A program made the position numbers and the translations under genes. Below are positions 45,219-46,918 of a stretch of 64,000 bases of DNA, one piece after another (within the stretch, counting starts at the first letter, position 1; each line of letters begins with the position of its first letter). Origin of the DNA: Strigamia acuminata (lineage: Eukaryota; Arthropoda; Chilopoda; Geophilomorpha; Linotaeniidae); assembly GCA_949358305.1 (NCBI GenBank), contig OX442315.1, forward strand, positions 10,938,427 to 11,002,426, in the 5' to 3' direction. The notes beneath the pieces are model-generated. The model did not search any database, was not told the DNA's origin, and saw nothing but the letters and a program-made list of their open reading frames with translations.

Positions 45219-45255
45219 CACTGGGAGAAATAATAGGTGTAAAAAGGTGTAAAAG
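45219..45255 (+). repeat. Left TIR of the Pack-type element
   Basis: Starts CACTGGGAGAAATAATAGG, inverted at 46883-46918. Confidence 0.85.
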
Positions 45256-45692
45256 CATCAAATACACCTTTTATTTTTTTTTAACACCTAAAAAGGTGTT
45301 AAAAGGTGTTAAAGGGTGTGACAGGGAGGAGTGAACGAAAATGGAGTGAAAATGGTGTAAAATCGCAGAGTTACACCTTCTGGTAAAAAGGTGTAATTCT
45401 TCTAAAAGGTGTTGAAAGGTGTAACTGGGAGGTGTTAGGGGTAACAATCCAATGCATCCGCCATATTCCTAATTAAACTGGGATTATCCGCTAGCTGTTG
45501 CTTGAACGTTTGTAAGTGAATTATCGAACCTTTTAAAACTAAATACGTATTAATTACGTGTTTTTATTGTACGATTCGTATTTATTTGCGCCCCGCTTAG
45601 AGTTTCAGCACATCGTGTGATGCGAAGACAAATCACAGAGACAGAATAATAGTCCCGCCGTTAACAATTGCACGCAGCTTGTTTTAACAAAA

Positions 45693-45891
45693 ATGGCCGA
45701 ATACTTGGCGTCGATATTTGGCACTGAGAAAGATAAGTACGTTGACTCGATGTTCTTCCTCGCTCCGGACATCTAAAACATTAACACTCAGTCGAACGAT
45801 TACACGATTTCAATTAATTAGGTTTGTTTACTTCTTTTAGGGTAAATTGTTTGTTTTATTTCAAAATCGGTGCTTGCCGGCAAGGTGATCG
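45693..45891 (+). pseudogene. U2AF1: Captured U2AF1 (U2AF35) gene fragment, with intron
   Basis: U2AF1 is the small subunit of the U2 auxiliary factor that recognises the AG of 3' splice sites. Exon 1 (45693-45736) encodes [14 protein letters not shown], the conserved U2AF35 N-terminus, and ends in phase 2. A 104-bp intron follows (45737-45840) with GTACGT donor and a TTCTTTTAG acceptor. Exon 2 (45841-45891) continues [17 protein letters not shown], matching the first CCCH zinc finger, then departs from the family at YFRS where Cys-Ser-Arg is expected. The third zinc ligand and everything after it (second half of the finger, UHM/RRM, second zinc finger, RS region) are missing. Retention of the intron shows DNA-level capture, not a processed copy. 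It lies inside a TIR element. Confidence 0.87.
45737..45840 (+). other. Retained intron of the U2AF1 fragment
   Basis: GT...AG boundaries, pyrimidine-rich end, and position after the codon for Lys in EKDK. It has in-frame stops, so unspliced reading ends at SMFFLAPDI. Confidence 0.8.
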
Positions 45892-46000
45892 TTATTTCAG
45901 AAGCGTGTTTTGGGCACGAAATTGAATTAATTTTTATATTTTTTTTTACATTTGAATTAATTAATTAATCTTGTGTTTTATTTCATCAATTAATAAATAA

Positions 46001-46162
46001 AAGACCATTAATTCGAGGGGAAGTTGGTTTCATAAGAAGAAGTCGGGTTTGAGCAGTTTTGAGGCGTTTTGGAATGCGTTGGGCGCGAGTGAAACGAGGA
46101 AAAGCGTCGAGGAGGAGGTCAAGATATCGCTGAGAGGTCGAAAATCGAGTTTTACGTGTTAA
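46001..46162 (+). pseudogene. Possible second captured exon fragment
   Basis: A 53-codon open stretch with host-like GC content in otherwise AT-rich DNA. It includes KKSGLSSFEAFWNALGASE and a charged RKSVEEEVKISLRGRK segment and ends at TAA 46160-46162. A CATAAG ahead of it could be a splice acceptor. The protein is not recognised; it might also be chance. Confidence 0.35.
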
Positions 46163-46882
46163 GTCGATAATTTTTATTTATTTTGTTGTGTTTTTATATT
46201 TACATATATATATTTTTTACAAAGTAATTCAAGATTTTAAATTTTAAAAATTAAAATTATTTTTTTATAATTTTTTCTGATTTTTTAAAAAAGCTTTTGC
46301 AAATTTTTGATTTTTCTGGAATGTTTTTTAAATTTTTTCGAACGTTTTTAAATTAATTTAGATTAATTTTTTTTGTTCCTCGCATTGCAAAACACATTTT
46401 TTTCATCAATTACTAAATAATTGTTCATTACATTTAAAAAAAATAAAAGCCCATTTTATTCAAAAACAACTACTTTTATTTGCTATTTCAAACACTACGG
46501 TGTGATTTTACTCCACAATGGGGTAAGTTTATACCTTTTAATGAACACCTGTAGGGTGTAATTCTACTCCATAGTGGGGCAAATTTACACTTGTTTTCTA
46601 ACACCTCAAAGGGGTGATTATACTCCTTAATAGAGTTCTTTTACACCTGTTAATCAACACCTCAAAGGTGTAATATTACTACATGATGGAATCCACTTAC
46701 ACCTTTTTTGAAAATGGTTTCAAGGAGTAAGTTTACACCTAATGGTGTACTATGACACCCACAAGGTGTAAATGCATGAAGGTGTAATATTTACACCTTA
46801 TGTTCATTACACCTCAATGGTGTAAGTTTACTCAAAAAAGGAGTCTGTATAGGGACAAGTGTTTTACACCTATAAAAGTGTA

Positions 46883-46918
46883 ACTTTACACCTTTTAACA
46901 CCTATATTTCTCCTAGTG
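46883..46918 (-). repeat. Right TIR of the Pack-type element
   Basis: Complement begins CACTAGGAGAAATATAGGTG, matching the left end. Confidence 0.85.

Follow-up and report, generated by a model that had tools for sequence, protein, structure and literature searches.

The analyzed window is a 64,000-bp stretch of the genome of the centipede Strigamia acuminata (C3:10938427-11002426); the genome searched comprises 237.5 Mb in 157 contigs. TERT from this genome showed 80% identity to that of Strigamia maritima, with 68% of the query covered. A Tribolium host was considered and rejected: 13 PDB sequences matched the TERT, human TERT being the best and none bearing a Tribolium label. Positions 45219-46918 of the window are occupied by a 1,700-bp non-autonomous TIR transposon with CACTGGGAGAAAT ends, subterminal AGGTGTAA/TTACACCT arrays, and a TA target-site duplication (TSD; 45217-45218 on the left and 46919-46920 on the right). 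The array octamers (AGGTGTAA, TTACACCT, AGGTGTTA, and TAACACCT) are almost confined to this element, which holds 21 of their 22 occurrences in the 64-kb window. The hexamers AGGTGT and ACACCT occur inside it 11 and 14 times, respectively. A preliminary description had presented the locus as a TIR transposon carrying exon 1, intron 1, and part of exon 2 of U2AF1; the inverted ends, the TA flanks, and the arrays were all verified. The inverted ends, described as 36 bp long, do pair, but comparison of the left end with the reverse complement of the right end gave about 35 paired bp, interrupted by two mismatches and a gap of 1 nt.

All parts of the element are in forward (+) orientation. The left arm (45219-45441) consists of the TIR and an AGGTGT-rich subterminal array and is common to the cargo-free relatives L022, L025, L027, L038, L039, and L040. 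It is followed by a first captured U2AF1 segment (45442-45902; 5' flank/UTR, exon 1, intron 1, and part of exon 2) and by a second, shorter one (45910-45965; the end of a later exon and the start of its intron). Next come a 24-bp internal remnant of the right arm (45977-46000; 92% identity to right-arm positions 1179-1202) and a captured 278-bp segment of a gene of the NFX1/shuttle craft type (46009-46286; part of exon 2 and the following intron). By sequence comparison, the right arm (46287-46918) is composed of a spacer common to NFX1 carriers, a TTACACCT-rich array, and the TIR. Thus, the cargo was correctly described as containing U2AF1, but the second U2AF1 fragment, the right-arm remnant, and the NFX1 piece had been missed. 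The element has no transposase of its own, and nearly all of its 1.7 kb is accounted for by the arms and the cargo. No match was found in the Rfam search, and no tRNA in the tRNA scan; a bacterial promoter scan was set aside as not meaningful for an animal.

Various other repeats and open frames were observed in the window. An open frame on the minus strand directly to the left of the element (44686-45218), leucine-rich-repeat-like by eye and lacking a Pfam match, is interrupted by the element and is perhaps a gene remnant. On the right side, another repeat begins exactly where the element ends (46919 onward); it has two matches in C6 that start from the TA, and one of these, when read, differs on its left side. 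Two long minus-strand open frames represent LTR retrotransposons, one with Pao-type peptidase, reverse transcriptase, and integrase domains (31327-36672) and the other with reverse transcriptase, RNase H, and integrase domains (39570-43973). The last 16 kb of the window (47646-64000) form a long tandem array, a candidate satellite, for which periods of 169, 188, and 357 bp were reported; the 357-bp reading is 90% alike.

Copies of the element and their target sites

At least 61 stretches matching the element were found in a whole-genome DNA search, in which the best 40 of 129 candidates were scored. The 16-bp termini, which in this family read CACT[A/G]GG, were found 53 times genome-wide with at most one mismatch, vs. 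2 times for a reversed-pattern control. The search for other copies of the TIR pair, proposed in the preliminary description, thus yielded copies both with and without U2AF1. U2AF1 and NFX1 pieces occur together at seven loci: the window, C1:10.93, C1:37.92, C1:47.31, C3:35.50, C4:12.99, and C95. The left arm of the C1:47.31 copy is interrupted by an insert of about 1.1 kb, and the right end of the C95 copy lies 13 kb off, which was read as a split by insertion. Five cargo-free relatives were measured at 269-591 bp. Two further short family members, L066 and L069 (C5:9475 and C11:1568 kb; approximately 0.85 and 0.9 kb), have another interior in common.

The 2-bp flanks match in all 13 tabulated two-ended copies, being TA in 12 of them and CG in one complete copy (C8:13936735). 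The table was restricted to copies with two readable ends and left out L066 and L069; in a later reading of flanks by eye, L069 has TA/TA and L066 is mismatched (GT on the left, TA on the right), giving 14 of 15. Joined flanks of six two-gene copies were used to search for empty sites. For two of these copies a paralogous empty site was found, with the junction spanned at 97-98% identity and a single TA in place of the element, that is, an exact TA insertion; none was found for the other four when the best 40 of 289 candidates were scored.

The two-gene copies spread recently and are nearly identical to one another. Five full-length copies differ from the consensus by 7-14 private substitutions per approximately 1,690 bp (0.41-0.83%). 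The C1:47.31 copy, with 44 private substitutions in 1,699 bp, was kept out of this range because its count is inflated by the left-arm insertion; in BLAST it is 99% identical over positions 71-1700. An assembly artefact or a segmental duplication in place of transposition is suggested by L019 and L021, two NFX1 carriers on C1 that have the same flank and probably represent a local duplication. For the two-gene copies, however, this explanation has a negligible probability and was already refuted by the two exact empty sites; moreover, six two-gene copies are complete (on C1, C3, and C4), and their flanks are all different, each TA/TA. The transposon would have depended on a transposase supplied in trans for its movement, with insertion at TA dinucleotides that were duplicated in the process.

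Superfamily of the element and its possible transposase

Dense subterminal arrays of short repeats are a feature of CACTA/EnSpm (CMC) transposons, and Helitrons have neither TIR nor TSD. The family described here has both TIR and TSD, so it lacks these Helitron features, and its 2-bp TSD (TA or CG) falls within the 2-3 bp of CACTA/CMC elements. Together, the CAC..GTG ends, the 2-bp TSD, and the dense subterminal repeats point to CACTA/CMC; the element is best called CACTA-like rather than a proven member, a label that relies on termini, TSD, and arrays because no autonomous element sharing its ends was found in the stretches inspected.

Eight Transposase_21 matches were found in the genome, four of them above the cut-off. 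None of these copies has the ends of the element within the regions inspected (8.5 kb around the C11 copy and about 1.5 kb per side for the others). The C41 copy is a 100% duplicate of the C11 copy over the stretches compared and gave no element boundaries. Lists of termini were also inspected by eye, one of them holding the best 100 of 300 hits, and no pair bounding a large element was found in them. Termini with 2-3 mismatches are mostly parts of what look like other repeats (36 in the control; best 100 of 300 hits). Open frames near the one-ended relatives L037, L041, L042, and L044-L048 appeared by eye to be retrotransposon-like or unrelated, and L043 has no open frame of at least 110 aa.

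A Tc1/mariner-type MITE with captured DNA was considered as an alternative to a CACTA-like element. A TA preference of such an element would fit the TA flanks of 12 of the 13 tabulated copies. The complete copy flanked by CG/CG argues against this assignment, however, as do the CAC..GTG ends with dense subterminal repeats; the genome, in addition, contains Transposase_21 genes. Furthermore, a CACTA element of Ciona savignyi has 5'-CAC/GTG-3' ends and a 2-bp TSD, according to the available text of its description (PMC6004678). We therefore regard the Tc1/mariner assignment as possible but doubtful. The CMC/CACTA MITEs with 2-bp TSD covered in the same text resemble the CACTA-like family in having CAC..GTG ends and no transposase inside (PMC6004678). 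The ten viral MITEs reported there, from four superfamilies, are 116-422 bp long and are described as having no coding capacity (PMC6004678, in the available part), whereas here the cargo-free relatives reach the lengths given above and other members carry host-gene DNA.

Captured segments of U2AF1 and of the NFX1-type gene

The parent of the U2AF1 cargo is locus L009 on C6. It encodes a CCCH finger (PF00642, E 9.4e-9); additional U2AF35 exons and a stretch rich in RS were recognized by eye. Alignment to this host locus bounded the cargo at L009:3509-3970 (C6:7300508-7300969; 90% identity) and L009:5373-5423 (86%) for the two segments. The parent was found to lack the repeat-rich flanks of the element, with no AGGTGTAA or TTACACCT and a single ACACCT hexamer in 8,001 bp. 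In the same region (C6:7297000-7305000), U2AF1 and PEN-2, a gamma-secretase subunit gene, are arranged head-to-head by eye, their start codons being about 0.4 kb apart. In human, U2AF1L4 and PSENEN have the same arrangement, and U2AF1/PEN-2 would then be an anciently conserved gene pair.

The exon 1 coding part of the cargo (45693-45736; 14 residues and 2 nt) starts with the ATG at 45693 and differs from the parent at one of 44 nt. The 104-bp GT-AG intron of the preliminary description was confirmed, with GT at 45737 and AG ending at 45840; both dinucleotides are kept in all seven two-gene copies, and conceptual splicing gives a 42-residue reading. The introns of a processed retrocopy would have been removed, whereas intron 1 is kept here. 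The cargo also includes approximately 250 bp upstream of the ATG, taken from the short interval shared with PEN-2. Capture of genomic DNA from the host U2AF1 locus, as originally proposed, is thus upheld by the parent locus, the six further copies, the empty sites, the retained intron, and the upstream region.

At about 452 compared sites, the seven two-gene copies show 29-33 differences from the U2AF1 parent (6.4-7.3%), compared with 0.41-0.83% between five full-length copies and the consensus; the capture is therefore much older than the last spread. At these sites, 18 substitutions are common to the young copies and the older locus L028, 11 are found only in the young copies, and 17 only in L028. 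The 18 common non-parental substitutions indicate that U2AF1 was captured once. The second U2AF1 piece begins at parent position 5347 in L028, so the young form lost more of it.

In all eight U2AF1 carriers that hold the exon, the CCCH finger has Tyr in place of its third Cys and lacks the His. Judged from its sequence, the cargo is coding-dead, with the finger broken in every copy holding it, and a working truncated U2AF35 looks unlikely with two of four zinc ligands lost. Four private substitutions were found in exon 1 and the exon-2 part of the seven two-gene copies (in C1:10.93 and C1:47.31), and all four are non-synonymous, which would be expected for neutral decay, although the number is small. 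As regards protein function, the most likely reading is that a recently mobile element carries this cargo as a neutral passenger.

If the cargo acts at all, it may do so as a mobile promoter/5'-exon cassette. It could have been retained because it works, as a mobile cassette with the U2AF1 promoter and a 5' splice donor that makes chimeric transcripts or small RNAs. This would fit the upstream region inside the element, the intact intron 1 boundaries, a second donor that reads GT in six of the seven two-gene copies (GC in the window copy), and the recent spread of these copies. The low copy number and the four non-synonymous substitutions argue against it, and we give retention for function only a slim chance. 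The same slim chance applies to the broader possibility of an animal Pack-CACTA that fuses cargo-bearing elements, moves the promoter, first exon, and splice donor of U2AF1, and seeds chimeric transcripts near host genes, perhaps with small-RNA feedback on U2AF1.

The parent of the second cargo is locus L029 on C8, where the 278-bp segment of the window matches L029:2999-3268 at 84% identity. The RING-like domain of L029 is weak (PF13639, E 3.6e-4, below the curated cut-off), and zf-NF-X1 domains lie directly downstream (C8:12245775 and 12246913). From these domains and from general resemblance, rather than from a tree, we take L029 to be a gene of the NFX1/shuttle craft type. C11 holds two further zf-NF-X1 domains, which points to another gene of the NFX1 type in this genome.

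NFX1 is also carried by elements with no U2AF1. In L019, L021, L033, and L030/L031 (the last read as a single element split by insertion), the piece extends from parent positions 2322-2324 to 3265-3270, with gaps in some, and comprises the upstream region, exon 1, intron, and exon 2. L035 (NFX1 2387-2720) is the sole NFX1 carrier among those read to retain both ends, the rest being truncated at one end or split. Both the U2AF1 and the NFX1 pieces are 5' gene ends, in the same orientation, and located next to the left arm on its inner side. The NFX1 segment of the window was compared with carriers L019, L021, L030, and L032 (L017, L023, L033, L035, L036, and L016 were left out). Over the first 180 columns, with 177 compared, 13 of its 21 non-parental sites are found in at least one of the four carriers, and there is no site at which a change absent from the window element is common to three or more of the four. 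Over the whole alignment, which is more AT-rich, 27 of 41 non-parental sites are common with the carriers. These sites suggest that the NFX1 segment of the window came through NFX1 carriers.

Origin of the two-gene form

U2AF1 unaccompanied by NFX1 was found at two loci, both incomplete. The older locus, L028, has no right end; L018 has one, but of the U2AF1 tail it retains just the final bases, which continue into the right arm. In both, the U2AF1 tail passes through the 24-bp stretch straight into the right arm. The old U2AF1-only copy L028 is interrupted between its positions 1237 and 7716 by a Pao-like LTR retrotransposon that contains a long open frame, and a family-like left terminus lies approximately 1 kb ahead of the left-arm match of L028.

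The window form consists, in order, of the left arm with U2AF1, the truncated right-arm remnant, a 5'-truncated NFX1, and the full right arm. Because of the remnant at the seam and the NFX1 sites in common with the carriers, it looks like a U2AF1 carrier cut on the right joined to an NFX1 carrier cut on the left. We infer that a U2AF1 carrier and an NFX1 carrier fused and that the hybrid was amplified afterwards. The fusion may have proceeded by template switching or by complementary terminal deletions of neighboring elements, the route proposed for hybrids of plant Pack-CACTA; the window form is the expected product of such deletions, and template switching would leave the same seam. Taken as a whole, it is highly probable that this is a CACTA-like non-autonomous element in which U2AF1 and NFX1 carriers fused and the hybrid was amplified, with a cargo that is most likely a neutral passenger.

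The alternative is that no carriers fused: an NFX1 carrier would have captured U2AF1 directly, or a single event with multiple template switches would have brought in both genes, and the U2AF1-only loci would be later deletions. In the available text of a survey, template switching is put forward to explain multicopy Pack-TIRs of animals (PMC8277862). In addition, the NFX1 piece of the two-gene form has a right-arm stretch on either side; recombination between these stretches could remove it and give the junction seen in L028 and L018, so that these loci need not be primitive. However, this scenario leaves the internal right-arm remnant unexplained, which is a direct outcome of joining the two carriers, and L028 branched off before the changes common to all young copies. 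The NFX1 piece is, moreover, longer in L019 and L021 (L029:2322-3267) than in the two-gene form (2999-3268), so the carriers are not deletion derivatives of the latter. An origin with no carrier fusion is thus considered unlikely.

Gene-capturing TIR elements had been characterized in the preliminary description as little described in animals, a reasonable statement, although the literature has included this class since 2021 (PMC8277862). The available text of that survey lists 370 animal Pack-TIR cases, of which 323 belong to hAT or Tc1/mariner (Tan et al., 2021; PMC8277862). Multicopy cases are rare, with four out of the 370, three in a frog and one in alligator; no Pack-TIRs are listed for insect reference genomes, and Ssk-FB4 is reported in fly populations (PMC8277862, same text). 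Its main text contains no mention of "EnSpm", "CMC", "two genes", or "two parental"; "CACTA" appears once, in the reference list. The element shares with these animal Pack-TIRs a TIR DNA transposon around host-gene DNA, a parent elsewhere, and a distinct target site for each copy, and differs in its centipede host, its CACTA-like ends, the joining of two captured genes, and the coexistence of single- and two-gene forms (PMC8277862, as far as available). Gene capture is also mentioned in the accessible part of a paper on arthropod MULEs (PMC13359780).

Cargo from multiple genes is known in plants. For plant Pack-CACTA hybrids, an origin from neighboring elements that lose complementary ends has been proposed, as stated in the available portion of a review (PMC13317346). 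Plant Pack-CACTA/Pack-TYPE elements, as presented there, are likewise non-autonomous, with CACTA-type ends, captured chromosomal DNA, and a hybrid model; here, in contrast, the host is an animal, both joined elements would already have borne cargo, and a right-arm remnant marks the seam (PMC13317346). In the open-licence PMC literature, to the extent of the text available, neither an animal Pack-CACTA nor a fusion of two cargo-bearing elements was found. Thus, gene-capturing TIR elements in animals are already known, and what appears to be new is the variant that joins two cargo-bearing elements. The hybrid-formation model of plants becomes testable in an animal, and the element would provide a concrete example of exon shuffling by a DNA transposon, illustrating how mobile DNA can shuffle parts of animal genes. 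A single genome still contains the two parent genes, elements with no cargo, carriers of U2AF1 and of NFX1, and the two-gene form, so that the likely order of events and the seam can be read directly.
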